32,812 nt of DNA, taken from positions 1 to 32,812 of the forward strand of contig JAMPAY010000019.1 of assembly GCA_023666945.1 (NCBI GenBank), in the 5' to 3' direction. Source of the stretch: Paludibacter sp. GTDB lineage: Bacteria; Bacteroidota; Bacteroidia; Bacteroidales; Paludibacteraceae. The position numbers were made by a program, and so were the translations under genes. The notes under the pieces are model-generated. The model had not been told where the DNA came from. It saw nothing but the letters and a program-made list of their open reading frames with translations, and ran no database searches. Of this stretch, positions 14,718-32,812 are shown piece by piece (position 1 is the stretch's first letter; every line of letters begins with the position of its first letter).

Positions 14718-17700
14718 TCAGTTAACCACAAACTTATCCGTAAAGATTTCTCCTGTACCGGTAACCACCCGAATGGTATAGAATCCGTCGGTCAGAGGCA
14801 ATCGGAGTGTAGCGGGGAACAATGTCGGGATATTGGTTGTCACCAAGGCTCCTGCAGCATCGTATATATATATACGACAATCGGTTTGTTGCGCTACAGT
14901 GAAAGGATAGTTGACGGTAAGTATCTCTCCCGCCTTAACAGGGTTAGGATAGAGCCCCAACTCAGAGGAAAGATTATCGACCGCAGTATTCAAATCGCGC
15001 ACCTCGATGGTATAGAGATTCCACTGACAGAGAGCATCGTTGACCAAAACTTTATCGGTATAGGTACCTACTCCGAAGTCTGCCGGAATCGTGATGATAC
15101 CATCGGTATAAGGCAGGTCGGCAAGGTATATGGTACGTTTGATTTCGTTTGCCGGGAGCGACGGATTGACACTCAATGTGACATAGACCAAACTATCGCA
15201 TCCGTAAACAGAATTGTAGCGTACCAGGTAGTTGCCCGCCTCTGTGGCTGAGAAGTTATCCATAACGAATGTTTCGCCATCGCAAATCGTCTCTTCGACA
15301 TGCGTTTCCACAGGCGACTTCGTTTGCAAGGTGAGCGTTATAATGCTATCGCACCCTTCTTCCGTATTCCATGCAAAACGTTCCAGGAGCAGAGGTTCAT
15401 CCAACACAAGTTCTTCGGCAGGAACGGTAAAGTTGTAGCCCTCATAATCAACTCCCTGACAAGCATAATCGGTGTAAACATAGTTTTGCACACAATTGAG
15501 TCGGATATTATCGATATGAAAATCGGTAGCGATCCCACTTGAAGAATATACAACATCGTGCACAAATGCTATTTTGACTTCTTGATCAGCATAGTCAGAA
15601 AGGTCGATGGAATATTGCATCCAATCGGTGGTAAGACGATCGGAGGGGATGGAAGACAATTGTTTCCATGTAGTGCCGTTATCGGTTGTAATCATTACCG
15701 ACAGATAGAAAGTTCCGTTATACGTATTAGGTTTCCCTACCAGTGTTGCGAAAGCGACATCGTAGGAAAGGAAAGTATTATCTGCCGTCAGTTGATATGC
15801 CGGAGAAACGAGCCACTTATACTGCTTTCGGGTTTTAGAATCAGAATCTTGATACAAATACGAAGCAATGTGTTTATTACCTCCCCAATTTTCCATAGAA
15901 GAAGCCGAATACATTAACCATTGATAATGGTACTTATGGTAGGAAGTAACAGTAGTGAGTTCAAATGCAAAAGGTTGCGACTGAGCCAAATCGGGCAACT
16001 GCTTAGAGAGCATCTGTTGCCAACAAGGTTGATTGTACTGCGATTTGTTAGCATACACCGGTGCATCGGAGAAATCGTTCCACAAGGGCAACGGATTGAC
16101 TCCGCACAACGTTGTAAAGGAAGCGGGAGTACTCCAAGCAGAAGATGCGGAGGCGCATACGCCCTTGACATCGACCGTATAGTCGGTACCCTGCGACAGA
16201 CCCGTAAGCAAATAGGGGTTGGACGTTGCTTCGATTTCCTCACCATTGTAACGAACGACCGTCTGCTGCAATGTAGCCGGTAGCCAAGAAATCAATGCAG
16301 AAGCATCACTCACTTGCGAAACAATCACCTTATAGGGGATAGGACAATCGTATTCGGTAACTTCGATATTGTCGATATATATCACATTCTGTACATCTCC
16401 TTTCAGAGCGATATAACTGCCTTGTTTTGCAGCCTGCTCCGAGATATACAAAACCAACTTGGTGAGTTCGTAATCGTTGCTATATGTTAAAGATGATTTA
16501 GCGGGAATTTCCAATTTTCCAATCTCGTAGAACGAGTTATAATCGAACACATTGTCCATAACGCCCACAGTGAGCCAGGTGGAATTGGCGGTATTCGTCT
16601 GCGTGGCAGTAATGTTAAGCATCAGGTTTTCCAAAGGCACATCGAACTGCGGCAAGACTGCGATAGAATTTAACGGCAGCAGCAAAACGGGCCATGTATC
16701 TCCCATGTCATCTGTTGACTTTTTATAGGAGAGTGTAGTTGTTCGCGCAGAACCCAATGTCCAACAAGACGGTACATCGTAGAATGATTCGAAGTAAGGA
16801 CAAGTTTGGTTGGCGCATGTGGTCAGGAAATCGTATTCCACCCACTCGGTATCTCCCTCATCGCAGATTGTGCGCACATAGAAGGCATAGCGCGTATCAG
16901 GTTTTAAGCCGGTAACACGATAAGCGGGACCGTTGTCGATTACATCGTGTGCAATATAGTCAGCCTCATCCAAATTGCCGGGATCGCCCACTTTACGATA
17001 GGTAGACACAGCTACCTCAAACTTTTGGTTGCGCCCGGCGAACCATTTGAAAGCAGCCGTTTGTGCGGTAAGTTCCGTAAGTGCGATATCTTGTGCGTCC
17101 ATACATTGATATTCTACAACAGAGACACTATCGATAGCCGCCGGCATACCCGGTTCTTTATAAAGACTATACCACTCGAAGCCTAACATATAAGTACCCG
17201 GTTCGTTTATCACTATGCTTTTCTCTATCCATTGGAAGTCGGGCTGACCATAGAATTTATCGAATATGAGGTATGTACCGGCCGTACTATTATTGGTAAT
17301 CGATACGGGTGCAGTGGTTACATCAGTAGCGAAAGCATAGGTAGCAGGATATAATCGGGCACGGATATAAGCATTATCGGGATCAGACAAATCGACGGTT
17401 CCTTCGTTTTTAATTTTGACACGCACCGTATAGGTACCGGCATAGGGTATTTCCAGATAGCGCAATGCCCAAATGGTGGTATAAATGGTGAGTTCCGACA
17501 TCACCCGATAATTATAGTTGACACCATCGCTTGATACGAACAAGGCCTTATCTCCTGTTCCATCACAAAGCGCAGCATCCCCAAAAATGAAACTATTCGG
17601 CATCAGCGAAGAAGACCAACTTGCAGTAGGATTACGCTTATTGCGCAAAACCCAAGCGGCATTGTCGTCGGCATCTTCAAAGCCCGTGATATAAGGCAGC

Positions 17701-20700
17701 GTGGCTCCCATTGGGGACGTAGTGAAACCAAGCGGTTCGGTCCACAACGTACCACCCGTCTGCTGCACATAGATGTCGTAAGCAGTAGCGGGCAGGAGAT
17801 TGGTAAGCGTATCGGCTGTAGTTGTCAGCGTCTTGACCGTTCCCGCACCATGTTCGAACCCTTTGGGACCATACTCGACCGTCCATGAGGTAATAGCCGG
17901 ATCGACATTCATAAAGGAATAGGCAGCAAACGTGCTTCCGAGATTGTTCAATTGCAGACTACTCATGCGGAACTCGTCGATATGCTCTTGTGTAATCACA
18001 AGATTGTCGATATAGACAGTTTTTCCTTTGCTATACTCTGTTAAGGTTTCAAATCGGATATACTTATAGTCGGACAAAGATTCTTCCAACAGCACCCCAT
18101 CTGCTATGCTTTGTGCGATATTGATATACACACACTGCCAGTTTGCAGAAGACAGATTCGTTCGTTGACCAATCAGCACTTTATCGTCGTATAGTTCCGT
18201 TCCTTTGGCAGCATACACATAGAGAACACCCGGTGCAGAAGCGTTTGTCGTACTTGTCTTGGCATTGAAATAAACGGTAATGTCTTTCCAAGAAGTGATA
18301 TCCAAGCAGGGTGTGACCGCGATAGCACTGTTAGCAGAAGAGTGCTGCCCTTCTGACGAAAAAGTTACACTTAATGCCTTTGAACCATTTTCGCCATTTG
18401 CAGACAACGAGCAATTGACTTGTCCAGCGGAATTAGAGCGCGGTATGTTGGTCCAACATTGCGGCATAGAGCCGGTCGTATAGGCATCGAACGATTCGAT
18501 ATAGGGCAAGGTCTGTACACTTTCGCAGGCCGTCATTATTGCAACCGCTTGTGTCCACTCCGTAAATTCGTCTTCTGCACATTCCATTCGCAGATAAGCA
18601 TAGTAGTTGGTATTGCCCTTCAGATTGCGGGCAACAGCCATTGTGGTATCGGAGAGCACTTCTGCAATAGGTGTTACTTCCATAGGGTTATCCACCAATT
18701 GGCTGAAAAGCCGCAGGCGATAGGTGGCACCTTGCTTTTTGTAGGTATTCCATGTAAAGCAAATGGTATCGTTGCTATACTCTTTCACTTTGAAGCGATT
18801 CAGCATCGGACAGTTTTGCACATAGTCGACCTCTACATTGTCGATACATATACTGGCCGCACTATAGTATGGTGATCCATCTAAACTGCTGTAGAAGCCA
18901 ATACGATCGAGCGGGTGCAGGGCAATATACTTACCTTGTTTTCCCCAGTCATCTCCCTTATAGTTTTCGAAGGTATAGTAGTAGCGGTCCCATTTGCGGT
19001 CGGGTTCTCCTCCCATATCGAGGAAGGCTTGTGATGTGCCTGCATATATTGCAGAGTCGACTTTCATACCCACAAAAGATGAGGGATCGAGCGGGTCGGT
19101 CATTACACCCACTTCCCAATAGTTGATACCATTATACTGCGGGCATACCGACATTGCCAGTTGCACTTTCGTAACGTCTTCAATGTCCAAGAGCGGGAAA
19201 ACGAGGTAGTTGCTTTGGGAGGCGGATGCGTTCAACAAATTTAAGTGCGCAGCAGAAACTCCGTCGACAGAAGGAGGAGTAGTTGAAGTGGGAGCCGTTA
19301 TGGTTGCAAAGCCGGGCAGATCGCCGGATGTGAAGGAGCATGACCATGTATCTTTGACACTATAGTCCTCAAAATCTTCGTAGAACGGTAATGCGATAGG
19401 CATACAATGGGTTGTAAACTGTACAGGAGCGCTCCAATCGCCTGTGCAATCGTGGGCAGCGTCAACTGCCTGCACATAGGCATAGAAAGTAGTAGCCACC
19501 GGCAGATTGGTGAGTTGATAGGACATGTCAGTAGCCAGTACAGACAACACATCCGCATCTTGCGTAGCCGGATCGATAGGCAAAGTAGACACTTTGATAT
19601 TCCAGGCTTGTTCGTCTTTCGCCTTAGTCCATGCAACTGTTGCCGACGAAGCAGTAACATCGGAAACATTAACCGTAGTAATTTTACCACACGCAGGAAT
19701 GAGTTCGACCAGTAAGTCGTCGACTATCGGGTAGAGTGATTTGCCCGATGTAGCGTGCATTATGTTGTCGCGATAGTAGTTGTAGTCGGCACGTAAACAG
19801 ATGCGTCCTTTCGTATTGTCGGGTATTGATGCGAAAGAGACAAAGACCTCCTCGTAGATATATTCGCTTGAATGTGTGTAGTCCATTACAGGAATAAACT
19901 CTTCATCGTCGGTCAGTACACCGATTTGCAGGAAACCGACATACGAAGAAAGCGAATAGTACGACATATAGAATGTCATTTGCAATTGATTGAGCGGTGC
20001 CGGCATATAGGGCAGCATTATTTGAGCGACACAATCTTTAGAGGTAACAGCGAAACGCAATACTCGTTTGGTATCGTCTTTACCATACGTATGGTCCCAA
20101 TACCCCGAAGACGAGCCAACACTAATTGATGCTTTCGCTATATAAGGTCTGTTGTTCAATACTCCCTTGGCATCGTGCGAGCCTGTGACATCCCAACAAA
20201 TAACTGTAGACGGTTTGGCAGCAGTTCCGTCGTCGAACGCATTAAAATCTTGGTAATAAGGCAGAGTAACCTCTCCACAGTCGGTCCAGAAGGAGAGATT
20301 GGTCCATTGTCCGTTTTTTCCGTTGCCGACTGCCTGCACATAGGCATAGTAGCGCGAGGAATGCGTCAGGGTTGTTACCGTGCAAGAAGGACTACCGCTC
20401 ACCAACTCCGTATAGAGAGGCGTAGCCTCATCGGGATTGGCGACATTGGAATCGTAGATATTGAGTCGCCATTGCGTAGCAACACCATTCTCTTTCCATG
20501 TGAAAGTTCCTCCCGTAGTGGCAGGTTCGACAGAGAAATCGGTTATTACCTGCGGGTCGGTGAAAGCAGAAACGGTCAAGTTGTCGATATAGAAATTAGA
20601 GGTTGTGGTGTTCTCCATATAGAACACGATGTACTTACCATTTCCCGTATATTCTTTGAGTGAGACGAAATAGAATTTCGGTATTTTCGCCGCTTCGGTA

Positions 20701-23507
20701 GACACCGATGCAACGGGAACGAGTGTCGTCACATCATAAGGATCGGACATGACACCGATTTTGAGTGTGCGCACTCCGCTTAGTGTGGTGGATTGGGTCT
20801 CTCCCCAAAAAGAAAGCACAACATCTTTAACAGCGGTTCCTTCCAACTCAGGAAGAATAGCATAGGGTTTAAATGAGGTAGCAGCAGTACCGGAACCGAA
20901 ATAGAGACACGGTTTAACCACCTCAGCGGGTACAGTATAGCCCGTGGCTGCCGAGAAAGCCGTATTAACGACATACGGAATGTATGTACCTGTTCCTCCT
21001 GCAAAGTTGCCACACATCCAATACTCGGGGAAATAGCCGCTTCCGTTGCCTGTATTTCCCGCTGCATTGACTCCTGCATTGAATGCCGTATAGTAGGGCA
21101 AGGTCATTGCATAGAGCGTAGTGGCAGATGTACCAACCCAATCCACATCGCATCCGTCAGGACGAACATAGACATAATAGGTGGTATTGGCATGCAGATT
21201 ATCCAACATGAGTTTCGGTTCGGCAAGTGTGGCTTCGTAGGTATCGGCCTTTGCAGAAAAATCGGTCAGTGGAACGGTTGAAACTTTGACTTGCCATGCC
21301 GTAGCCTTACCAAACTCTGTCCATGTAGCCTCAATAGCCGTTTTGGAGAGCGGCTTTGCCGTCAGTTTTACGACCGAGGAGCAATCTCGCAAAGGATAGA
21401 CCTCGATATCGTCGATATAGGGTGACAAAGTGGCGGTAATTTTAGAGGGCACAAAGGTGATGTATTTTCCTGTTCCTGTGTAGTTCTTCAGGTTTACCTT
21501 CAGGCGTTGCCACTCTGCTTTGAGCGTATAATGCGCCGTATCGACCGGTGTGAAGTTCTTACCTGCTCCAAACATATCGCCTTGTGGCAGTTCGCTTGAC
21601 TGCACATCGCTCACTCCCACAATGATATCGCCTGCTCCGGATGCATTATAGACCGAAAACTCGACCGTCATATCCTGCAAAGGCAGGTCGGTTGGCATAG
21701 CGGGCATCATGGCATACTTGGTTCGGTTAGTGGTAAAGGGAATCAGGAGTGATGCTTTGGTATAGGACGTAACCTGCGCATTTGCGGTGGTAGAGACATA
21801 AGGGCGTTCGTTGGGAAATTCCAAGTCTCGGGATGCTGCCGCTATGGTTAAAATTCCACGGCTACCCGTAACCCAACCATTGGGGGCGGCATCGATGGTA
21901 TTGGTATAGAAATCGGCATCGTATCGGTCGAAATGTTCCACATAGGGGAATGTAACCGCTTGTGCCGTTTTGAATGCGACTCCGTCGGTCCATTCGCTAT
22001 CGGAACAGCCACTTTGCAGATAGACATAGTATTCGGTAGCCGGTTGCAGCCCTTTCACTTCGAACGGTACACCCGAAGCCACACCTGCAAACGCACAATC
22101 GTCAGGATTGAGATTGTCGAAATCGGTGACAGGTGTTTCGGAAACCACCACATTCCATTCGGAAGCATTCCCCGCTTCCGTCCAATAGAAACGTGCCGAC
22201 ACGGATGTTACATCCAAAACCGACAAGAACATAGGCATAGGACAAGCCGTTGCCTTTTCGATGCGGATATCGTCAATAAAAATCAGGTTCTTACTATTTT
22301 CGTTACCTCCACCGATAACAATATAACGCCCTACTCCTTTATAGCCCGCCAAAGAAACCGTAATCTGTTCCCATGTCCGTGCTTTAGGCAGCGTCAGAAC
22401 CTTAACATCCTCCACATCCATCAATTCTTGCGTGGCAGACACACCTATATGAACGGTACGTGCCTTGGTAACACTCTCATCGTTGGTTGCAGCATAAAAG
22501 GTAACCTGATATTGACTCACATCGTCGGAAGACTCCGGCAAGAACAGATAGTGCACTTTTCCTGCCCCGGACTCCATCTTCAGCGCAGCCCCTCCCTCGT
22601 GTACATACTCACGAGAGATTGCAACCATATCTGCCGAAGTAGCGGAGGGATGCAACAATATTTTCGAGCAATCGCTCAAATCGTTTTCAAAATCTTCCGT
22701 ATAAGGAATGGTAATAGGCAAACAGAGCGTTGTAAACGTAGTATCGGCCCATGCACTCACATCTTCTGCACCACAAACATTCTGCAGGTATACATAATAT
22801 GTTGTTGCTTCCGTCAAGTTAGTAAGCAGCATCTCTTCCTGATACACCACTCCATCGTAGACATCGCCCTCATACAATGAGGGATTATCCAACGCTTTCG
22901 TAGATACTTTCAGATTGTATCCCTCGAAATTGGATGCCGTGGACATCGACCACAACAAAATGACCTGATTGGACGAAAGTCCTGCAAACGGTAAGAATTG
23001 CGGAGCCACAGTACATTCTTCACGATTGGCAATACGCACATAATCGATATATACACCTCCTGCAGAAGCCGATTTACCGACCAAAGCCACTTTAGCCGTT
23101 TGCTTGCTATTTGCCGGCAAATCGAGCGTAACGGACGCATAGTCGGCAATAGGGAGATTCAGCAATGCCAACTCCGTAAAAGTACCGTCTTCCGCCTCGG
23201 TGAGCACCTGCAATGTATCATTCACATTGGTTAGCAGGGGAAGTTTGTACGCCAACGTCAGCGAAGGATGCCAATCGAGCGATGAAATATCCACCAATGG
23301 AAAGAATAAGGTGTCCGTACCATTCAACACATTGGTTGAAAACCGGGCAGCCCCCTCCGTAAAAGTCCACGCACTACCTGCACGCCAACCGTCAGGCAGT
23401 GACGGAGACTCAAAATCTTCGTAGAACGCTGTCTTTTGCGCACAGCATACTACGCTCACAAGACCCAACACAACGGCAGTCAAGTAACGAGAGATAATTT
23501 GCTTCAT
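14718..23507 (-). CDS. Giant T9SS-secreted adhesin-like protein with ten jelly-roll/FN3 modules (paralog A)
   Basis: This 2929-aa protein begins with a signal peptide ending near CCAQ (about residue 23). It contains ten modules of about 250-295 residues. Each starts with a motif like LPYxExF, runs through a MAM-like jelly-roll ('choice-of-anchor J'/cleaved-adhesin type) ending in a yIDnI strand, and closes with a fibronectin-III-like segment ending YYVYLQxxC...FTT. Module starts lie near residues 28, 262, 516, 799, 1076, 1369, 1662, 1936, 2232 and 2469. After the last module two CDSIITLTL-type repeats lead into a T9SS type A sorting domain (LYPNPVKAGEILTV, then a final KFVVN). Such modules occur in Porphyromonas HagA and gingipains, where they bind host proteins or haem. 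The gene has its own promoter and terminator. Export by T9SS is well supported; ligand unknown. Confidence 0.93.
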   Translation of the reverse strand: MKQIISRYLTAVVLGLVSVVCCAQKTAFYEDFESPSLPDGWRAGSAWTFTEGAARFSTNVLNGTDTLFFPLVDISSLDWHPSLTLAYKLPLLTNVNDTLQVLTEAEDGTFTELALLNLPIADYASVTLDLPANSKQTAKVALVGKSASAGGVYIDYVRIANREECTVAPQFLPFAGLSSNQVILLWSMSTASNFEGYNLKVSTKALDNPSLYEGDVYDGVVYQEEMLLTNLTEATTYYVYLQNVCGAEDVSAWADTTFTTLCLPITIPYTEDFENDLSDCSKILLHPSATSADMVAISREYVHEGGAALKMESGAGKVHYLFLPESSDDVSQYQVTFYAATNDESVTKARTVHIGVSATQELMDVEDVKVLTLPKARTWEQITVSLAGYKGVGRYIVIGGGNENSKNLIFIDDIRIEKATACPMPMFLSVLDVTSVSARFYWTEAGNASEWNVVVSETPVTDFDNLNPDDCAFAGVASGVPFEVKGLQPATEYYVYLQSGCSDSEWTDGVAFKTAQAVTFPYVEHFDRYDADFYTNTIDAAPNGWVTGSRGILTIAAASRDLEFPNERPYVSTTANAQVTSYTKASLLIPFTTNRTKYAMMPAMPTDLPLQDMTVEFSVYNASGAGDIIVGVSDVQSSELPQGDMFGAGKNFTPVDTAHYTLKAEWQRLKVNLKNYTGTGKYITFVPSKITATLSPYIDDIEVYPLRDCSSVVKLTAKPLSKTAIEATWTEFGKATAWQVKVSTVPLTDFSAKADTYEATLAEPKLMLDNLHANTTYYVYVRPDGCDVDWVGTSATTLYAMTLPYYTAFNAGVNAAGNTGNGSGYFPEYWMCGNFAGGTGTYIPYVVNTAFSAATGYTVPAEVVKPCLYFGSGTAATSFKPYAILPELEGTAVKDVVLSFWGETQSTTLSGVRTLKIGVMSDPYDVTTLVPVASVSTEAAKIPKFYFVSLKEYTGNGKYIVFYMENTTTSNFYIDNLTVSAFTDPQVITDFSVEPATTGGTFTWKENGVATQWRLNIYDSNVANPDEATPLYTELVSGSPSCTVTTLTHSSRYYAYVQAVGNGKNGQWTNLSFWTDCGEVTLPYYQDFNAFDDGTAAKPSTVICWDVTGSHDAKGVLNNRPYIAKASISVGSSSGYWDHTYGKDDTKRVLRFAVTSKDCVAQIMLPYMPAPLNQLQMTFYMSYYSLSSYVGFLQIGVLTDDEEFIPVMDYTHSSEYIYEEVFVSFASIPDNTKGRICLRADYNYYRDNIMHATSGKSLYPIVDDLLVELIPACGKITTVNVSDVTASSATVAWTKAKDEQAWNIKVSTLPIDPATQDADVLSVLATDMSYQLTNLPVATTFYAYVQAVDAAHDCTGDWSAPVQFTTHCMPIALPFYEDFEDYSVKDTWSCSFTSGDLPGFATITAPTSTTPPSVDGVSAAHLNLLNASASQSNYLVFPLLDIEDVTKVQLAMSVCPQYNGINYWEVGVMTDPLDPSSFVGMKVDSAIYAGTSQAFLDMGGEPDRKWDRYYYTFENYKGDDWGKQGKYIALHPLDRIGFYSSLDGSPYYSAASICIDNVEVDYVQNCPMLNRFKVKEYSNDTICFTWNTYKKQGATYRLRLFSQLVDNPMEVTPIAEVLSDTTMAVARNLKGNTNYYAYLRMECAEDEFTEWTQAVAIMTACESVQTLPYIESFDAYTTGSMPQCWTNIPRSNSAGQVNCSLSANGENGSKALSVTFSSEGQHSSANSAIAVTPCLDITSWKDITVYFNAKTSTTNASAPGVLYVYAAKGTELYDDKVLIGQRTNLSSANWQCVYINIAQSIADGVLLEESLSDYKYIRFETLTEYSKGKTVYIDNLVITQEHIDEFRMSSLQLNNLGSTFAAYSFMNVDPAITSWTVEYGPKGFEHGAGTVKTLTTTADTLTNLLPATAYDIYVQQTGGTLWTEPLGFTTSPMGATLPYITGFEDADDNAAWVLRNKRNPTASWSSSLMPNSFIFGDAALCDGTGDKALFVSSDGVNYNYRVMSELTIYTTIWALRYLEIPYAGTYTVRVKIKNEGTVDLSDPDNAYIRARLYPATYAFATDVTTAPVSITNNSTAGTYLIFDKFYGQPDFQWIEKSIVINEPGTYMLGFEWYSLYKEPGMPAAIDSVSVVEYQCMDAQDIALTELTAQTAAFKWFAGRNQKFEVAVSTYRKVGDPGNLDEADYIAHDVIDNGPAYRVTGLKPDTRYAFYVRTICDEGDTEWVEYDFLTTCANQTCPYFESFYDVPSCWTLGSARTTTLSYKKSTDDMGDTWPVLLLPLNSIAVLPQFDVPLENLMLNITATQTNTANSTWLTVGVMDNVFDYNSFYEIGKLEIPAKSSLTYSNDYELTKLVLYISEQAAKQGSYIALKGDVQNVIYIDNIEVTEYDCPIPYKVIVSQVSDASALISWLPATLQQTVVRYNGEEIEATSNPYLLTGLSQGTDYTVDVKGVCASASSAWSTPASFTTLCGVNPLPLWNDFSDAPVYANKSQYNQPCWQQMLSKQLPDLAQSQPFAFELTTVTSYHKYHYQWLMYSASSMENWGGNKHIASYLYQDSDSKTRKQYKWLVSPAYQLTADNTFLSYDVAFATLVGKPNTYNGTFYLSVMITTDNGTTWKQLSSIPSDRLTTDWMQYSIDLSDYADQEVKIAFVHDVVYSSSGIATDFHIDNIRLNCVQNYVYTDYACQGVDYEGYNFTVPAEELVLDEPLLLERFAWNTEEGCDSIITLTLQTKSPVETHVEETICDGETFVMDNFSATEAGNYLVRYNSVYGCDSLVYVTLSVNPSLPANEIKRTIYLADLPYTDGIITIPADFGVGTYTDKVLVNDALCQWNLYTIEVRDLNTAVDNLSSELGLYPNPVKAGEILTVNYPFTVAQQTDCRIYIYDAAGALVTTNIPTLFPATLRLPLTDGFYTIRVVTGTGEIFTDKFVVN

Positions 23508-23702
23508 AAGCCTCTTTTTGATTTATAATAAATATTCAGCCTACAGACTAAAAGATTCTTCAAGTAATCTTTTCCGCACACTTGCAGATATAACATTCAC
23601 ACAAAAAACCTCTCCTGCAGGACTATTAACTATGTTTCCGAACCAAGTACATACACCCTTATTTTGCAAAACAAATAAAAGATTTACCTACCTATCAGCG
23701 TA

Positions 23703-23734
23703 CAAAGATAAAAATAATACAATGACAACACAAA
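23703..23734 (-). promoter_or_regulatory. Sigma-ABfr promoter of giant paralog A
   Basis: On the minus strand TTTG (23731-23734), a 20-base spacer and TATCTTTG (23703-23710) match the consensus exactly. The predicted leader to the ATG is about 190 bases, unusually long for this window. Confidence 0.7.
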
Positions 23735-24080
23735 CAATCTTCCGAAAAAAATAACTTTCCATCGCAAACAGATATATTTTATGCACAACATACAAACAAA
23801 CGGTATAAATATAAACTGCAACAACACTATTTTACACCCCAAAACATGCCATTTAACACTCCACAAAGCAACCAAAAGGCATAAATATGCACAAAAGACA
23901 AGAATTAACAACATAAAGGAATACCATAAAATAGCAAAACGAAACATACTTATTCCACTAAGCACGCCTTACAAACAACAACAGGCTTTAATACATCTAC
24001 AACAAACCCCACTCTTCTATTAAAATGTAATAATCGCCCATCACGATTTCGCCAATAAAAGCATAGGCCATTGATTTTGA

Positions 24081-24132
24081 CAGGATGAAAGCAGGATGAG
24101 ATGTCGTACCCCTCTCGTAATGGTCTCGTAGC
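24081..24132. repeat. 11-bp-period repeats in the gap between the giant genes
   Basis: caggatga occurs at 24081-24088 and 24092-24099, 11 bases apart. Downstream, cctctcgtaat (24111-24121) and ggtctcgtagc (24122-24132) are adjacent 11-bp units closely related to the array at 6858-6890. Confidence 0.55.
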
Positions 24133-24238
24133 GAAATGCTCTATTGAAACCTTTCTGATTGCAAGCGGAAAGTGATAGAAAAAGACAGAGGTTATGCTAT
24201 AGAAAGAAACATACACATTTCCACACAACGTTGATTAT

Positions 24239-24280
24239 GCAAAAAAAAACAAGACCGGCTCTTCTTGGGAGTCGGTCTTG
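24239..24280 (-). terminator. Terminator after the 2784-aa adhesin gene
   Basis: A 12-bp stem (24250-24261 with 24269-24280, one G-T pair) with a 7-base loop is followed on the minus strand by nine T residues. It lies 23 bases after the stop. This is the strongest intrinsic terminator in the window. Confidence 0.92.
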
Positions 24281-24302
24281 TGAGAGAGGAGTGGCGTGCG
24301 TT

Positions 24303-27300
24303 TTATTTCACCACAAACTTGGCGGTATGGTTTTCGCCCTGAGCAGTAGTCAAACGAACAAGATAGACACCTGCATCGCCGACAACCTTAATCTGTAGCG
24401 GCAGTCGGTCAGGTTTGAGCGTAGAAACCAAAGAACCGTTACCGTTATAGAGATAAAGCGTCATACCTTCCATTTGCTCTGCCGTAAACTTACCCGTTAT
24501 CGTGATATCGCTACCCGAAAGTACCGGATTAGGCGTAACGGAGAGCGTGGCTGCCGACACATTTTCGATGGAAGAGCCTATGCAGTCGGAAGATTCCGTC
24601 AGGTTGAGATAGGTAACCTTGTTGCACCCTTCTTCGGTGAAAGAGCGTATGATATGCTCACCTATCGTATATTCGACATCTTCGTACAGATAGGTTTGGT
24701 TTTTGCAGATAGCGGCATTGATGGTTTCTTCGACAGAGGGCAAGGTGGTGAGCGTGAGTGTTACAATATTATCGCACCCGTTGTTATCGCTGCGCACCCA
24801 CTGTGAGAGCACAAGCGGCTGAGAAACGGAGTGTTTGTCGGCCTCAACCGTAAAGCCGTAGCCCTCGTAGGGATAGGTTTCGCAGACGTTGTCAGTATAC
24901 TCGTTACGTTCAACACAATTGAGTCGTACATTATCGATGTGCAGAATAGACTTCGAATCTTTGGATGTGACAGCATGGAAGAAGGCTATACGCACGTTTT
25001 TACCTGCATAGCGGCTCAAGTCGATTTGCTGTGTTGCAGCAGCCGACGGTATTTGCACATTGTTAAACAATGTAGCATCTTGCCGTTGCCACGAGAGTCC
25101 GTTGTCGAGTGAGACTAACACGGCAAACTGCCCAAGTGGTTTGGCTATGGTGTACCACAAATCGAAAGTAAGCAAAGCATTGTCGACGATAGCAAATTCC
25201 GGCGTAATCAACCAACGGTTGTTTACATAATTCTCCGATGAGAGAATCGACTTATCTTCAGCCTTGGTTGTGCTGTTGGAACGCCAATGGTAGGTATACG
25301 AAAGGGATGTAGGAACATATGTGAGTGTTGCTCCGTTATCCAATACATCGTCTAACGTTCCTTCTGAAATTTGCGAATTCCAACACAAGAGCGAAACGGG
25401 CCCATCTTGCTTGAGTGTAGCGAAGTCTTCATCGAAAGGCATATCCCATGTGCCACATTCCGTAGTAAACTCGACAGGACGCGAGTACTCTGACACACCG
25501 TTTTCGTAGACAGCCGCCACCTGAACCGAATAGACAGTGCTATGCGTCAGGTTGGTGAGTGTGCAGGGATTGTCCGTAACCGGGATGACCACTTCATTGC
25601 CGTCTTGCGACAAGCGTACAAGCCATGAGGTTTCGTTAGAACCATTCATCCAACCAACCTGTGCGGTTGTTTGCGTGATATTGGTCACTACAATATTTTC
25701 GGGATCGATAAACTCAGGTATCTCGGTGATAGTGAGGTCATCGATGATAACCGGTTTGTTGCTTGACCTAAGTGCCAAAACTTTTCCCTTGCCGATGTAG
25801 TTATGCAGTTTGAAATCGCACACATCGAATACTTTGGTTGAAGAATTCGTAATGAAGGTGGTTACCAACGGCAGTAATTCTTCGAAAGAATCGGTATCCA
25901 ATTGGTCGTTCATAACACCCAAAGAAAGCGAGACCGGCGTGCTTACCGTTGACTCTCCGCTTGCAAAGGAGAAACTGATACGCATCGTGTTGACAGGCAC
26001 ATCGAAGACAGGCAATACGATGGTCGAATTGGCTGCTATGTTGTAGACCGTCTTGGTGGGACTATTGATGGTATAGGCATGATTGTATGCATAGTTGAGA
26101 TACTTATCGGGATTGGTTTCTCCATAGATAATCCAACATGAGGGTTCTGCATCGAACGACTCAGCATAAGGCAAAGGTTGCACTCCGCAGTTGGTAGCGA
26201 AGGGGTATTCCACAAACTCGGTATAGGAATCGACACACAAGGTGCGTATATATAAGGAGTAGGGGGTAGTAGGCTTCAAGCCTTTTGCCACAAAAGTATT
26301 GCCTTGAATGGTTTGTCGTAAGGTGACATATTCGTCGGTTTCATCTAACTGGAAAGGGTCACCCATGTTGCTTGCCGCTACCATTACTTCGAAATCGTTG
26401 CTCTTTCCCGCAGCCCATGTAAAGACAGCAGAATCGGCATCGATAGCCGTGAGTCGGATATTGGAGGGTGCAACACAATCGTACTCTTCGATGGTGATAG
26501 CCTTGATATAGTCGGGTTTAGCAGCAACAAGTGCCGAAGTGGCCGTTATCTGATACATCAGGTTGTACAACCCCGGTTGGGTGACCGTAACCTTTGCATT
26601 GACCGTAGCCGGTTCCGTTTCCTTATGCTGATAAACGAGTGTGTATTCGTTGTTGTCGGGGGCACCATTCTTAACGATACCGGTAATATACCCATTTTCG
26701 TGTCTTAACGAACTACCCTCGATAGCCACACTTGTGGGAAGGATTGCGAGAGAAACATATCCTCCCGACGGAACAGCATCGAACTCGGAGGTAGCCAACA
26801 GTACAACCGGTTCTTCCACCCGTATGGTGCGATACATCCACAAGTAGTTCTTTCCTCCCGCTTCCGGAGAATAGTTCCATTGCGCATTAGACACCTCATC
26901 GGTGAAGGTATCGACATAGGGCAATGTAGCGATTCCCTTGGTTGTGGTGAAGGTGAGGGGTGCAGTCCACTCGGCATCGTCCTTATCGACACGAACATAG
27001 ATATCGTAGGAGGTGTTGGGCGTAAGTCCTGTGAGCGTATCGGTAGAGAGCGAGATTTGCTTGCGTATACCCGTTCCAAGTGCAAACCCTGCGGGACCGT
27101 ACTCTGCCTGCCATGCCGTTACCTGATCGTTGAGTTCGAAGAATGAGTAAGCCGCATAAACATCACCCACCTCGGTCATCTTCAAATCGGTAATGGGGAA
27201 GTTGATAGTACGGTCGTTAGAGATGAGCAGGTTGTCGATAAGCAGCGAGCCGTAAGATTCGATACCGATATACTTATAGTTCTTAAGGGACTTATATCCG

Positions 27301-30300
27301 CTAAGGTCGATGTAGTATGGCAGATATTTTCTCCATGTTGTAGGTATCTCCATTGATACTATGAGTTCGCGGTCGGCCTCCGGGTTATCCATATAGTCGT
27401 TTGTATTGACAGCATAGATATTCATGCGTGCTCCAGAGTGGGCATAGCCGAAGAAATAGAGGAACACATGCGACAGAGAATCGACATCCACCTCAGGAAG
27501 AATAACCATATCGCCTTTGGTACTACTTGCCGAACTATTATAAGCACCTGCAATCAGCATAGCGTATTTGCCATCGAAAACAGGATCGGAATCGGTAGGC
27601 GCATGCAGCGAAGATACTCCCGTTGTATGCGTCCAGCAAGAGGGCATTGTACTGCTGACATATTCCGTGAGATAGTTCTCGAAATCGTCGTAGTAAGGCA
27701 ATGTAAGTTTTGCGGGACAATCGGTACGGAAACGCAAGCCTGTGCTCCATGCACTATTGATAATGGCACTGCACTCCGAGCGTACGAACGCATAGTAAGG
27801 CGTATTGGGAAGAAGGCCTTTGACGGTGGCTGACAAAGTATCGGCAACCACTGTTTCGAAGATAAAGTCGTCGGCATCGGCATTGTCGGGCAAGTAGTTG
27901 AAGACACGCAAGCGGAAAGAGGTTTGTTCGTCGAGAGCCGTCCAAGAGCATTTGGCCGTATCGGTGGAACATTCTTCCATGATAAGTGCCATAGGTGCAA
28001 TACACTCTTCGCGCAAAGTTATTTCGATATTATCGAAGTACATATCTCCTCGCGCAACCGACTCCGAAGCCATTTTCAGATTCGGCACATGGATAGCGAT
28101 GAAATTGCCATAATCGGGTTCGAATTGTCCGGTTTCTTCATTATAGATAAGGTCGCCGCCCTTATAGGTATCGAAAGCATAGTAACGCTCTTGCCAAACT
28201 CGCGTACCCGATACATAGATAACAGAATCGTAGTGTACGGGCGTAAAGGTGGCAGGATTGGTCGGGTCGGACATGACACCCACCTCGAAATAATTCACCT
28301 TAGCACTCTTGGCATTGACCCACAAATGCAACTGCAGATTCTTTACCGAATCGATCTGCATGGCAGGCAGTACCCAATAGTCGTTCTTATCTTTGGTAGG
28401 ATAGACATTGAGGTGTCGCTTGGAAATTCCGTCGACAGAAGAAATGGTGGTATTGGTAGCCAACACCTTTGCAAATGTTGCTTCGTAGCCCGTATAGTAA
28501 TAGTAGGGCGAGGGAATTGCATTGGCGGCATACTTCTCGAAGTCTTCGGCATAGGGCAAGGGTAGCGGACTCCACCAAGTGAAGAAGTTGACAGGCACGC
28601 TCCACTCTCCCTGACAATCGTTGGCAGGATCGACAGCCTGCACATAGACGTAATGATTGGTTCCGCTCTTCAGTCCGGATAGTTTCAGTTGTGTTTCATT
28701 CAATTGTCCGTCGAAAACATCGCCTTCCTGACTTTCGGGATGGAACGATTCAGCGGTAGTCACCTTCACATTGTAGAGCGTTTCGTTGTATGTTTTGTTC
28801 CAACGAATGGTAGCAGTAAGCGAATCGGCCTTCTCAACCCACACCGTTTCGACACGACGACAAGACGGAATCTGTTCTACCATAATATCGTCTAAAAAGA
28901 TGCTAATTGATGCCTTGTTGTACCAATTATTATTCAACCATGTTTCACGATCGTACCAGATAACAATGTTTTTACCCGTACCTTTATAGGTATCGAACAT
29001 AACATCGCACTCTGCCCATGCGTTAGCCACCGGGTGGAAATACTGCTTAACTTCGGTGAACGAGCCATCGTCTTCTCTGACGCCTATACGCAACCAAGGT
29101 CCATAGTTGTCAGACGCATCGGGTTGCGTTGAGCAAGCCTTTGTTCCGCTGACATAGAAACGCAAGTGCAGTTGATTAACCGGCAGTTCAAATTCGGGCA
29201 ATTCGAGCCCCTGCATAGTAGCAGAAGAAGCCGAAGCACTGGCAGACATAGACGCCGACATTTTGAATACTTTCTTTGTATTATCACCGGGATAGGTATG
29301 GTCGCCGGCATAACTGCTACCTGAACTTGCCGCTACAAAAGGCATCTGGGTAGCAACGGATGTCAAGACCTCGTAGCAAGGGGGCAAGACGTTGAATGAT
29401 ACGGTACCTACCTCATAGTCATTAAAATCTTCTTTCCATGGTAATGCCATGGGAGCGCAACCCGACCAAATACATTCCATTGACGACCAAGGTCCGAGTG
29501 CATCTCCCGAACGAGCCTGCACATAAACATAATAGGGTGTGCTATGCTGCAAGCCGGTTACGAGAACCTCCGGTTGGTTGTTGACCGTAGCGGAAAAGAC
29601 GGGTGCATCTGTATCGGGATTGGAGCCTTTACCGGAGAATACACGTACATTCCATGCAGTGGCAGTACCATTTTCTTTCCAACCCAACTTAATTTCGGTA
29701 GGAGCCGTTTCCAAGGCTACAATATTCGAAGGCGATTGCAGTGTATTCTTATCGGTAATGGAAAGATTATCAAGATAGAACGTATTGGTAACAGAAGTAC
29801 CCACTACCGTATCATCGTAAAGAACAATAAACTTGCCTGCTCCCTCGTAACTATTCAAGGGAACCACAAAGAACTCAGGTGTTTTTCCTTTGGAGAGTGA
29901 AACCGATTGTACCGGTGTAAGCGTAGTGAAGTCGGTAGTATCAGTCAGCACACCCACCTTGAGCCGCCCTGCACAGTTGCTGGAATTGATATCGTTGGGC
30001 ATATATCCGTAGAAAGATACCACCAAGTCTTTGACATCGCCATCGATATACTCGGGCAAACGAAGATAGCCATTGATACCTGAGGACGCCGAATGCTTAA
30101 AAATAATGGAATTGGGTGTAACATTGGCAGGTGCATTCGTCCACTTGGTTGTACCAACTGTAGGCAGTGTTTTGGATGTAAAATTGCCTAACTTCAGTTC
30201 CGACCATGTCTTATTAGGACTATCGAAATTGTTGACATAAGGAACATTGAGCGCATGTATCGTATTGGCATAAACAGATTGCCACTCTACATCGCAACCG

Positions 30301-32657
30301 TGCGGGCGTACATAGAAATAGACGGTTTGCCCGGGATTGAGTCCTTCCTGCACGAAAGTAGTACCCTCATCCCATTCGCCATCACCTAAATCGGCGGTTT
30401 GCGTCATATCGGTCATTGCCACAGAACTAACCTTTATATCCCAAGAGGAGGCAAAAGAACGTTCTTCCCATGTAAACTTGATTGCATAATTAGAGAGAAC
30501 CTCTGCTTGTAGATTATCGACCGTGAGACAAGCAGGTGTGTAATCGACCGTAATATCATCAATATAATGTTCGCTGTACGGTGTCCAGAACGTAATGAAC
30601 TTACCATTGCCTTTATAATTGGTGAGCGGTGCTTCCACCTTCACCCATTTGTTGGCTAAGGTTTTTACGTTGACTTGTTTCACGAACGTAAAATGTCCGC
30701 CTTCGGACAGCATTTGCCCTCGCGGCAGTCGACCGTCTTGCACATCCATGACCCCGACATTGTAGGTAATAGTAGTAGCCGATTTGGCATATACATAGAA
30801 CGAAAGCATCAATTGGTTAACCTCCGCTCCTGAAATTTCAGGCAGAATAGCAAACTGCACATAGTTATCCGCTCCTTTTACCCGCAACGAAGCCGCCTTA
30901 TAGGGAGTACTTTCGTTGTTGTACGCAGTTGTCAGATAGGTAGCATAACTACTTGACGTAGACCAATAATCGTTATTAGAAGACATGTAGCGTGTATCGA
31001 CCACGATATCGGTAGGAAGAGCACTTGTGTTGTTTGTATAGATTTCGTTGGGATACTGATCGAAATGTTGCACGTATGGCACTGTGGCCTGTTGCGGTGT
31101 TTTGAAAGAACCTCCCTGCACAAAGTTGTCGGGATCGCAAGCGGATGCCACATAGAACCAATAGGTGGTAAGTTGTGTCAGCCCCGTAATCGTATAGGGA
31201 TTGGACGTAACCTTGTTGTAAAAGACCACTTCGGGAGAATCGGATGTAAGCGAAGTAAAATCAGTAATCTCTTTATTGGCTACCAACAAATACCATTCGG
31301 AAGCCGTAGGTTTAGAGTCGGTCCACCCAATTGTAGCCTGTGTAGACAATGCTTGCTTACATGTAGGAAACATTACGTTCTCGCAGTCAGAAGCCTGCTC
31401 TATGGACAAATTGTCGACGAACATATGGTTTGTTTGACCCGTTTTGCCGGTATAGAGCACTATGTAACGTCCGGCACCTTGATATCCCTCGAAAGAAACC
31501 GTCAGTTTCTCCCATTTCTGTGCTTTGGGCAAATCGAAGGTCTGCCACTCTTGCACGGATGCAGGATCGTGCGAAGTGGCCACACCGACATGTATCTGCC
31601 GTGCATATAACTCTCCCGCATTGTTAGTTGCCGCCATGAAAGAGATTTGGTAGTTGGTAATATCTTCTGCAATTTCGGGTAAGAAAACATAACTCGTTGC
31701 CGCAGACCCCGTATAGAAATAGAGCGATTGTTTACCTTCGTAAGGATAAGTGGTTTTAAGAGAAGGAATATAACTGGGCACCGTGCTTCCCGACACCGAT
31801 GTAGACCAACAAGATCCCAATGTTGCATCTTCAAAATCGAAGAACAAAGGTGCCGTGATTTGTTCGCAAGGGGTAACAAAGGATAGAGATGCCCATGGGG
31901 ATACATCGTTGTCATCGCAATCGGTTTGAATATAGAACCAGTACTCGGTGTTGGGAGTCAGATTCTCCAAGGCAATACTCTCATCCAAATAGCCTGTATA
32001 TTCCGCCACATCCGCCTTTTGTAAGAAATCGGAAATAGGGGTTGTAGATACCTTGATGTTATAGCCAATCATTTGGTCGACCATAGACACATCCCACAAA
32101 AGAGCCGCGGATTTTGGTTTGAGATACGTACTAAGAAGCGTGAGTCCCGTTACAGGTTGGCTGCAATAAGGACTGTTTTGTACCTGCAAATAATCGATAT
32201 AGATACCTCCCGCAGCATTGTTTTGAGCCTGCAAGCCGATATGCAGTTTCGGCACATTGGGCAGAAGAACGGCTACGGTAGTATAGTCTTCGAGCGCAGC
32301 CGAAAATGTTTGTAAAGGAATCCAATCGGCAGACTCGGGCAAGCGATAGCATACAGTGAGCGGATCGACAAGCGATTGCAACGACGGCTGCTTAAGCCGA
32401 AGCGCCACCATAGGATTATGCTCCAAAGAAGAAATATCCACCACCGGTGAACAGAGAATATCTTCGGCATTTGCCAAAGTAGAAGAAAACACAGCATTGC
32501 CCGCAGTGCAGTTCCAAACCGAACCTACTTGCGACCATTGCTCCGGCAGTCCATCGGAATCGAAATTCTCGACAAACACAACCTTTTGCGCACTAAGCGT
32601 TCCGCAACATACCCAAAAGATGAGCATGAGCCAATGAACAAGGTTAAATCTTTTCAT
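24303..32657 (-). CDS. Giant T9SS-secreted adhesin-like protein with ten jelly-roll/FN3 modules (paralog B)
   Basis: This 2784-aa protein has a signal peptide (MKRFNLVHWLMLIFWVCCG...SAQ). Its ten jelly-roll plus fibronectin-III-like modules start near residues 27, 262, 522, 800, 1066, 1361, 1646, 1906, 2156 and 2399, nearly the same positions as in the neighbouring paralog. Shared landmarks include VDISSL and GG(V/I)YIDY in module 1, and IDN(I/V)RLNCV followed by YEGY(N/G)FTV after module 10. The tail has a CDNIVTLTL repeat and a sorting domain (VTPNPVLSGSDITIT, ending KFVVK). One segment of about 75 residues found near the C-terminus of the paralog is absent here. I start at the ATG at 32657; an in-frame ATG 33 bases upstream would put extra residues ahead of the signal peptide. 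It is presumably a T9SS-exported adhesin; ligand unknown. Confidence 0.93.
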   Translation of the reverse strand: MKRFNLVHWLMLIFWVCCGTLSAQKVVFVENFDSDGLPEQWSQVGSVWNCTAGNAVFSSTLANAEDILCSPVVDISSLEHNPMVALRLKQPSLQSLVDPLTVCYRLPESADWIPLQTFSAALEDYTTVAVLLPNVPKLHIGLQAQNNAAGGIYIDYLQVQNSPYCSQPVTGLTLLSTYLKPKSAALLWDVSMVDQMIGYNIKVSTTPISDFLQKADVAEYTGYLDESIALENLTPNTEYWFYIQTDCDDNDVSPWASLSFVTPCEQITAPLFFDFEDATLGSCWSTSVSGSTVPSYIPSLKTTYPYEGKQSLYFYTGSAATSYVFLPEIAEDITNYQISFMAATNNAGELYARQIHVGVATSHDPASVQEWQTFDLPKAQKWEKLTVSFEGYQGAGRYIVLYTGKTGQTNHMFVDNLSIEQASDCENVMFPTCKQALSTQATIGWTDSKPTASEWYLLVANKEITDFTSLTSDSPEVVFYNKVTSNPYTITGLTQLTTYWFYVASACDPDNFVQGGSFKTPQQATVPYVQHFDQYPNEIYTNNTSALPTDIVVDTRYMSSNNDYWSTSSSYATYLTTAYNNESTPYKAASLRVKGADNYVQFAILPEISGAEVNQLMLSFYVYAKSATTITYNVGVMDVQDGRLPRGQMLSEGGHFTFVKQVNVKTLANKWVKVEAPLTNYKGNGKFITFWTPYSEHYIDDITVDYTPACLTVDNLQAEVLSNYAIKFTWEERSFASSWDIKVSSVAMTDMTQTADLGDGEWDEGTTFVQEGLNPGQTVYFYVRPHGCDVEWQSVYANTIHALNVPYVNNFDSPNKTWSELKLGNFTSKTLPTVGTTKWTNAPANVTPNSIIFKHSASSGINGYLRLPEYIDGDVKDLVVSFYGYMPNDINSSNCAGRLKVGVLTDTTDFTTLTPVQSVSLSKGKTPEFFVVPLNSYEGAGKFIVLYDDTVVGTSVTNTFYLDNLSITDKNTLQSPSNIVALETAPTEIKLGWKENGTATAWNVRVFSGKGSNPDTDAPVFSATVNNQPEVLVTGLQHSTPYYVYVQARSGDALGPWSSMECIWSGCAPMALPWKEDFNDYEVGTVSFNVLPPCYEVLTSVATQMPFVAASSGSSYAGDHTYPGDNTKKVFKMSASMSASASASSATMQGLELPEFELPVNQLHLRFYVSGTKACSTQPDASDNYGPWLRIGVREDDGSFTEVKQYFHPVANAWAECDVMFDTYKGTGKNIVIWYDRETWLNNNWYNKASISIFLDDIMVEQIPSCRRVETVWVEKADSLTATIRWNKTYNETLYNVKVTTAESFHPESQEGDVFDGQLNETQLKLSGLKSGTNHYVYVQAVDPANDCQGEWSVPVNFFTWWSPLPLPYAEDFEKYAANAIPSPYYYYTGYEATFAKVLATNTTISSVDGISKRHLNVYPTKDKNDYWVLPAMQIDSVKNLQLHLWVNAKSAKVNYFEVGVMSDPTNPATFTPVHYDSVIYVSGTRVWQERYYAFDTYKGGDLIYNEETGQFEPDYGNFIAIHVPNLKMASESVARGDMYFDNIEITLREECIAPMALIMEECSTDTAKCSWTALDEQTSFRLRVFNYLPDNADADDFIFETVVADTLSATVKGLLPNTPYYAFVRSECSAIINSAWSTGLRFRTDCPAKLTLPYYDDFENYLTEYVSSTMPSCWTHTTGVSSLHAPTDSDPVFDGKYAMLIAGAYNSSASSTKGDMVILPEVDVDSLSHVFLYFFGYAHSGARMNIYAVNTNDYMDNPEADRELIVSMEIPTTWRKYLPYYIDLSGYKSLKNYKYIGIESYGSLLIDNLLISNDRTINFPITDLKMTEVGDVYAAYSFFELNDQVTAWQAEYGPAGFALGTGIRKQISLSTDTLTGLTPNTSYDIYVRVDKDDAEWTAPLTFTTTKGIATLPYVDTFTDEVSNAQWNYSPEAGGKNYLWMYRTIRVEEPVVLLATSEFDAVPSGGYVSLAILPTSVAIEGSSLRHENGYITGIVKNGAPDNNEYTLVYQHKETEPATVNAKVTVTQPGLYNLMYQITATSALVAAKPDYIKAITIEEYDCVAPSNIRLTAIDADSAVFTWAAGKSNDFEVMVAASNMGDPFQLDETDEYVTLRQTIQGNTFVAKGLKPTTPYSLYIRTLCVDSYTEFVEYPFATNCGVQPLPYAESFDAEPSCWIIYGETNPDKYLNYAYNHAYTINSPTKTVYNIAANSTIVLPVFDVPVNTMRISFSFASGESTVSTPVSLSLGVMNDQLDTDSFEELLPLVTTFITNSSTKVFDVCDFKLHNYIGKGKVLALRSSNKPVIIDDLTITEIPEFIDPENIVVTNITQTTAQVGWMNGSNETSWLVRLSQDGNEVVIPVTDNPCTLTNLTHSTVYSVQVAAVYENGVSEYSRPVEFTTECGTWDMPFDEDFATLKQDGPVSLLCWNSQISEGTLDDVLDNGATLTYVPTSLSYTYHWRSNSTTKAEDKSILSSENYVNNRWLITPEFAIVDNALLTFDLWYTIAKPLGQFAVLVSLDNGLSWQRQDATLFNNVQIPSAAATQQIDLSRYAGKNVRIAFFHAVTSKDSKSILHIDNVRLNCVERNEYTDNVCETYPYEGYGFTVEADKHSVSQPLVLSQWVRSDNNGCDNIVTLTLTTLPSVEETINAAICKNQTYLYEDVEYTIGEHIIRSFTEEGCNKVTYLNLTESSDCIGSSIENVSAATLSVTPNPVLSGSDITITGKFTAEQMEGMTLYLYNGNGSLVSTLKPDRLPLQIKVVGDAGVYLVRLTTAQGENHTAKFVVK

Positions 32658-32735
32658 AGACCTATATAAATATAAAAAAATAATGTCCAAAAAACAAGAG
32701 CCGCCCCCTACTCACACATCACGGCAAATACGCAA

Positions 32736-32743: not shown

Positions 32744-32812
32744 AGAAAAATCTACATAATACCTGTTGGTTGAATTAAATCAGTGAATATTTTATCTGCC
32801 CAATTGGACGAT

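Follow-up and report, generated by a model that had tools for sequence, protein, structure and literature searches.

Two giant, predicted surface proteins of a Paludibacter genome belong to a family with ten ordered modules that orthologs appear to exchange slot by slot

Results

Genes A and B and their ten modules

The stretch of DNA analyzed here (the window) is the entire contig C10, 32,812 bases long, of a 2.08-Mb Paludibacter genome that is 98.85% complete, and it carries two adjacent giant genes, A and B, with intact open reading frames. Gene A (14718-23507, - strand) encodes 2929 amino acids and gene B (24303-32657, - strand) encodes 2784 amino acids counted from the ATG at 32657, with the frame staying open further, up to a TTG at 32690. 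Both N-termini read as signal-peptide-like. The proteins are built of fibronectin type III (fn3) domains and repeated choice-of-anchor J (jelly-roll) domains, the latter matched by NF038128 with 97.4 bits in A and 91.8 bits in B (cut-off 30), and six stretches in A and five in B pass this cut-off alone. A type A sorting domain of the type IX secretion system (T9SS), TIGR04183, is found in both genes (14721-14954 in A and 24306-24539 in B, both on the - strand); it exceeds its cut-off of 23 in a protein-level profile scan (31.4 and 26.1 bits for A and B) and scored 39.5 and 32.2 bits in a genome scan. The host genome encodes the T9SS sortase PorU, the sole T9SS part searched for (NF033707, 1052.9 bits; cut-off 420, exceeded in 0 of 14 control genomes).

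Each protein contains ten J+fn3 modules, hereafter slots 1-10. The array occupies 15489-23438 (- strand; residues 24-2673) in A and 24912-32588 (- strand) in B, both sets of coordinates being derived from residue positions. Modules start with a PY-like motif at residues 24, 266, 519, 802, 1081, 1372, 1666, 1936, 2235, and 2472 of A and at residues 24, 268, 525, 804, 1071, 1366, 1652, 1911, 2161, and 2405 of B, counted from the ATG. A preliminary description of the window had listed six pairs of near-equal module positions, which agree with these within 6 residues. It also had all ten modules of each protein starting with LPYxxxF; the number of modules holds, but slot 1 opens with TAFYEDF in A and VVFVENF in B. 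When all modules were scored against each other, each module of A scored highest against the same-numbered module of B in 10/10 rows and 10/10 columns, with same-slot scores of 176-422, a best off-diagonal A-B score of 185, and shuffled scores averaging 36 (maximum 49). Pairwise alignment of the slots gives a same-slot identity of 30-39% (39% for slot 10), and the family alignment gives 27-37%, with the lowest values in slots 8-10; as the two alignments disagree on slot 10, an identity gradient along the protein is not firm. Off-slot identity between A and B averages 26% (maximum 34), and overall the two proteins are 34% identical. At four-fold-degenerate sites they are 21-45% identical per segment, i.e. 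saturated. In a maximum-likelihood tree of the modules, same-numbered modules of A and B pair in all ten slots (with strong support in eight of them, 90/81 in slot 5, and 89/83 in slot 9), as the preliminary description had expected, with no clustering of modules within either protein. Best matches and tree thus bear out, ten times out of ten each, its proposal of a common ancestor that already had ten modules whose order was not scrambled inside either protein.

The ten-slot family

With A as the query, a database of 5.8 billion proteins gave 544 matches, of which the best 120 were listed, and B gave a similar set (best 120 of 384). Among the matches listed, identity to A falls from about 35% to 24-27% after P0085. 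The family set was composed of P0002-P0085, P0122-P0146, six proteins from the first genomes, and giants from later loci (P0001 is A and P0121 is B; identical rows were removed), and many of its members are close relatives of each other. Counting A and B, the set has 126 proteins, and slot order 1-10 is kept in 122 of them, the four exceptions being three short fragments and P0082, which has no recognizable slot 1. Seven more distant proteins were set apart, and the full order is found in none of them. The longest slot in the family has 317 residues at most, and in the eight longer members inspected the extra length sits behind slot 10, with GCDS-type repeats. Allele classes number 36-48 per slot among 105 proteins, which form 97 distinct ten-slot combinations.

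The preliminary description had taken the lack of a cysteine before slots 3 and 4 as a quirk shared by A and B. It is true of both, but slot 8 likewise has no preceding cysteine in either protein, and the trait is not private to the pair: in family rows with letters at these positions the cysteine is absent before slot 3 in 120/120 and before slot 4 in 120/120, and before slot 8 it is absent in 113/121 and present in 8/121. Before slot 6 the cysteine is present in 115/121 family rows and in A, and absent in B. Such quirks are common to the whole family and on their own are no sign that A and B are sisters.

In a scan of named genomes, limited to the best 80 of 515 matches, the 11 loci closest to the query come from assemblies assigned to Paludibacteraceae or Bacteroidales whose titles, where they name a source, name ruminants. 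The host, an uncultured bacterium, is likely a member of the Paludibacteraceae of the ruminant gut. Matches to B at E up to 1e-60 were found in 21 of 358 Paludibacteraceae-family genomes, one of which, G063, holds a distant relative. Re-scoring the 21 genomes gave no added copy among at most 14 candidates per genome, a number that 10 of them exceeded, and the pieces in G196 fit one broken giant gene. Other giant frames of 2520-4822 amino acids with weak module matches occur across the genus, whether or not a genome also has the ten-slot family (G003:C2, G009:C83, G020:C52 and C30, G015:C2, and G026:C7), sometimes two per contig.

Both giant types are present in three genomes, the one studied here, G020, and G118. 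In a tree of 29 proteins B forms one clade with G020_C3 and G118b (support 100), and A forms another with G020_C67, G013, and G118a (99), which places the origin of the two types before the three species. In trees of the single slots, made with 27 of these proteins, the B clade is recovered in 8 of 10 slots, with supports of 87-98 in slots 2, 3, 5, 7, 8, and 9, and in no slot does A group with B alone. By sequence comparison A and B are old paralogs from one ten-module ancestor; the preliminary description had already suggested that the copies are old, which agrees with their 34% identity and with a B clade that spans three genomes.

Gene neighborhood

Giants of this family usually stand in a cassette with two further genes, X and Y, and a C10 peptidase gene. 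X and Y share about 30% identity and are thus relatives, and neither scores above the cut-off of any Pfam or NCBIfam family. The predicted model of Y opens with a MAM-like and an fn3-like domain. Y lies directly upstream of 16 of the 18 giants whose upstream neighbor is in view and X upstream of the other two (G135 and G151); this count omits A, whose neighbor is B, as well as B, G020_C3, G107, and G063, which lie at or near contig ends. Of 19 non-B giants (G196 left out of the count), 18 are followed by the C10 peptidase gene, in many cases together with an OmpA-family gene, and in G151 the peptidase gene lies behind Y. The order varies, being X-giant-Y-C10 in G151 (L143) and X-giant-C10 without Y in G135 (L136).

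The genome under study has a single X-Y pair at the edge of contig C6 (L118:68-6484). Its X and Y cluster with the B-linked pair of G118 (95/97 and 95/96), apart from the A-linked ones. On this grouping, for which G118 alone supplies visible B-linked X and Y genes, the copied unit was probably X-Y-giant, and A has probably lost its own X-Y pair. The two sets of G118, X-Y-A'-C10-C10 and X-Y-B', are separated by about 32 kb and point in opposite directions, which leaves a tandem origin unsupported. Thus, of the whole-gene tandem duplication put forward in the preliminary description, descent from a ten-module ancestor is supported and the tandem mode unsupported.

The spacer between B and A (23508-24302, no strand assigned) is 795 bp long and AT-rich. 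It holds no piece of X, Y, C10, OmpA, or giant genes at E up to 1, and a remnant of X, Y, or the peptidase in it was rejected on these grounds. Behind A lies the C10 cysteine peptidase gene (12515-14641, - strand; PF01640, 221.2 bits), with a Spi-type inhibitor prodomain and a weak sorting tail that scored 20.5 bits in one scan, below the cut-off of 23, and 24.2 bits in the genome scan. The contexts of the cysteine and histidine that we take to be catalytic align with streptopain. An OmpA-family outer-membrane protein, often conserved beside the peptidase, is encoded at 10746-12515 (- strand). Farther along, at 790-2274 (- strand), the window encodes a polygalacturonase/galacturonidase-like protein (best NCBIfam match 169.8 bits; model cut-off 800).

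A 21-bp terminal repeat is located at the contig edge about 100 bp upstream of the B ATG (window 32760-32780, - strand) and at 33-53 of contig C6. Copies of it, 11 of them exact and 6 with a single mismatch, stand 26-34 bases from 17 contig ends. It is likely the terminus of an insertion element that is present in many copies and was left unassembled. An invertible promoter at the 5' end of B, considered for the 20-21-bp inverted repeat at the window edge and in C6, was rejected because the repeat occurs at these 17 contig ends. The flanks of C1/C5 and C4/C8 match by eye as 9-bp duplications. A direct join of C6, with X and Y, to the window edge, with B, is unsupported; the two carry opposite element end types, yet by eye their flanks do not pair, and a scripted flank-pair test gave only one 4-base match, C1 with C8.

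Slot-wise mosaics among orthologs

Between species, A-type giants are mosaics of slots with very different identity. The giants of G169 and G155 are 98, 88, and 88% identical in slots 4, 5, and 8 and 48-55% in slots 1, 6, 7, and 10, and those of G138 and G169 are 87-94% identical in slots 6, 8, and 10 and 43-56% in slots 1, 5, and 7. Four-fold-degenerate sites were compared for 450 modules from ten genomes. Their identity averages 72% (range 49-90) in the 14 modules with 80-90% amino acid identity and 82% in the 8 modules above 90%, and the remaining 428 modules have means of 34, 38, and 42%. A trio of proteins was called conflicting when different slots gave different nearest pairs with a margin of at least 15 points. 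Conflicting trios number 48/816 for the giants of 18 genomes and 0/286 for X (13 rows), 0/455 for Y (15 rows), and 0/560 for the C10 peptidase (16 rows). These control genes have 3-4 windows versus the ten slots of the giants; with the giants cut to such numbers of slots, conflicts appear in 11 of 12 blocks (6-15/220 and 0-16/455 trios) and in none of the trios for slots 7-9. Among 82 proteins less than 90% alike 8054/88,560 trios conflict, and 76/455 do so for a set of 15 proteins that each have at least three contigs listed.

Sharp switches, from 85% or more to 70% or less, number 2218 in 796 of 5460 protein pairs, which are not independent of each other. The fraction within 15 residues of a module start is 36%, whereas rotated borders give 10% and reach the observed value in 0.2% of rotations. 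When J/fn3 borders are counted along with module starts, the fraction at this distance is 57% versus 20%; for J/fn3 borders alone the excess is not significant (0.095). A looser breakpoint count (425 in 1479 pairs) was dropped: it placed 29% within 20 residues of a start, and although shifted borders averaged 11%, the best set of them reached 27%. Switches run both ways at 8 of 9 borders and one way at 1|2, and at 3|4 and 9|10 they run mostly one way, indicating that unequal slot speeds contribute. Slots 2 and 3 are slower on average and slot 10 is faster. For pairs whose overall identity is 50-90%, the correlation between slots falls from 0.56 for neighbors to 0.33-0.39 at distances of 7-9. 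Over 21 genome pairs the giants have a mean identity of 58.8, versus 63.2-66.3 for neighboring genes. Gene conversion between A and B was rejected, since no slot is raised in identity within any of the three genomes (27-37% in G000, the genome studied here, 27-35% in G020, and 23-40% in G118).

Modules have likely been swapped in register between orthologs of different species with the order kept, as would be expected if whole slots are exchanged by homology. The preliminary view that no module shuffling followed the duplication is thus correct within each protein and probably does not extend to orthologs.

Discussion

The interpretation that we favor, with a probability of about two in three, is that A and B are old paralogs and predicted T9SS-exported surface adhesins with ten non-interchangeable slots, and that A-type alleles trade whole slots. 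Its basis in sequence is the fixed order, the same-slot homology, the sorting domains, and the T9SS sortase gene in the genome. The Sec pathway and the T9SS would carry the giant out of the cell, and PorU would cut off the sorting tail and anchor the protein at the surface. There the jelly rolls may contact ligands (host, diet, or other cells) with the fn3 domains acting as spacers. X and Y are probably partners of the giant. The C10 peptidase encoded next to it may act as a processing enzyme on the array, by analogy with gingipains and their adhesins. A-type alleles likely diversify through homologous exchange of whole slots between strains and species, and A and B, with no mutual exchange, would be able to diverge in ligand.

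The predicted jelly rolls are closest in fold to the cleaved-adhesin domains K1-K3 of Kgp and would share the jelly-roll fold of these K domains. HagA and the adhesin regions of RgpA/Kgp from Porphyromonas gingivalis resemble A and B as giant T9SS cargo with jelly-roll adhesin domains and peptidase partners. In P. gingivalis W83 a gingipain gene, PG0410, lies directly upstream of the adhesin gene PG0411, and HagA is described as having repeated adhesin domains with identical repeat sequences (PMC5266723). Near-identical repeats are not seen in A or B, where module identity within one protein averages 26% with a maximum of 30%. Unlike HagA, the ten-slot family has modules of such low identity, about 26%, in an order kept in 122 of 126 proteins, and seemingly varies by same-slot exchange; unlike the partners of gingipain systems, its partner peptidase belongs to family C10. 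That gene shares with streptopain and interpain the prodomain and the catalytic cysteine and histidine context, and differs from them by its T9SS-like tail and by adjoining a giant. The same domains as in A and B occur in Prevotella intermedia T9SS cargo with choice-of-anchor J and fn3 domains, described as putative adhesins with short and long sorting tails, and the sections consulted describe neither a ten-slot register nor slot exchange for them (PMC11969387). Among the matches listed in a literature search, there was no paper on the ten-slot family or on slot-wise exchange in such proteins.

Several results weigh against parts of this interpretation. The Pfam gingipain (cleaved-adhesin) family, which we take to be the defining family of HagA/gingipain adhesins, is not among the matches of A or B at E up to 1, a scan in which HMMER filters drop most matches above about 0.1, and Kgp domains are absent from the 50 Foldseek matches shown. 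The peptidase gene is missing behind the A-type giant of G020, and the X and Y trees disagree on the attachment of the B-linked pair. With switches collapsed to distinct 10-residue positions, the excess is weaker, 49/155 lying within 30 residues of a start versus 21% expected, and over all pairs the correlation between slots is almost flat (0.82 to 0.76). In the protein trees B is outermost to all others in two and beside the A-locus group plus G135 in the 29-protein tree. The slot trees show no B clade for slots 1 and 10 and a weak one for slots 4 and 6 (67 and 48), and A joins other A-locus proteins only in slots 1, 3, 4, and 5 (53, 85, 77, and 95).

Three other explanations bear on different parts of the evidence. 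Rather than adhesins for other cells, the giants could be rods with a structural role or scaffolds that bind carbohydrates and keep X, Y, and the peptidase at the cell surface; this is unlikely, though the strongest of the three, as the top fold matches are gingipain adhesin domains, and slot-wise exchange with faster divergence than in neighboring genes fits a protein facing changing partners better than a scaffold. The mosaic identities could instead reflect slots of unequal speed or chimeric assembly. The slower slots 2 and 3, the faster slot 10, and the switching that is one-way at 1|2 and mostly one-way at 3|4 and 9|10 point in this direction, and chimeras are possible in that the genomes used are metagenome assemblies and all other sequences come from these or from databases rich in them. 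However, synonymous sites switch in step with the protein, conflicting trios require different ancestries, X, Y, and C10 of the same genomes give none, and conflicts persist in proteins that each occur on three or more contigs, so that we regard this explanation as improbable. A tandem duplication that was recent, confined to this lineage, and limited to gene A, with B then diverging fast, would suit the position of B directly upstream of A with 795 bp between them, and in the slot 7 tree the row nearest to A by path is B. Late-duplication topologies are also not rejected (p-AU 0.132 and 0.352), though these still predate the three species. This third possibility is very improbable and is already contradicted by the B clade, both in the protein tree and in six slot trees; the X and Y of this genome also cluster with the B-linked pair of G118, and an exclusive A-B pair appears in none of the ten slot trees.

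On the reading of A and B as old paralogous adhesins, the pair exemplifies a broader pattern, that of a family with ten fixed slots that was duplicated long ago, probably together with neighboring genes, and whose orthologs likely trade modules between equivalent slots. A further proposal, which we hold tentatively and at somewhat less than even odds, is that the giant is a ten-slot combinatorial recognition protein with dozens of alleles per slot, recombining only with the same slot of orthologs, and that the co-duplicated X-Y-B set is an isolated parallel one. If so, populations would build new slot combinations at constant order, and the X-Y-B cassette would perhaps be aimed at another ligand, phage, or host. 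Compared with the identical repeats reported for HagA, this family has ten dissimilar modules in fixed order, seemingly exchanged one slot at a time. The family lends itself to studies of the contacts made by each slot, and it bears on how recombination acts on a giant gene without scrambling it and on how a duplicated copy escapes slot exchange.
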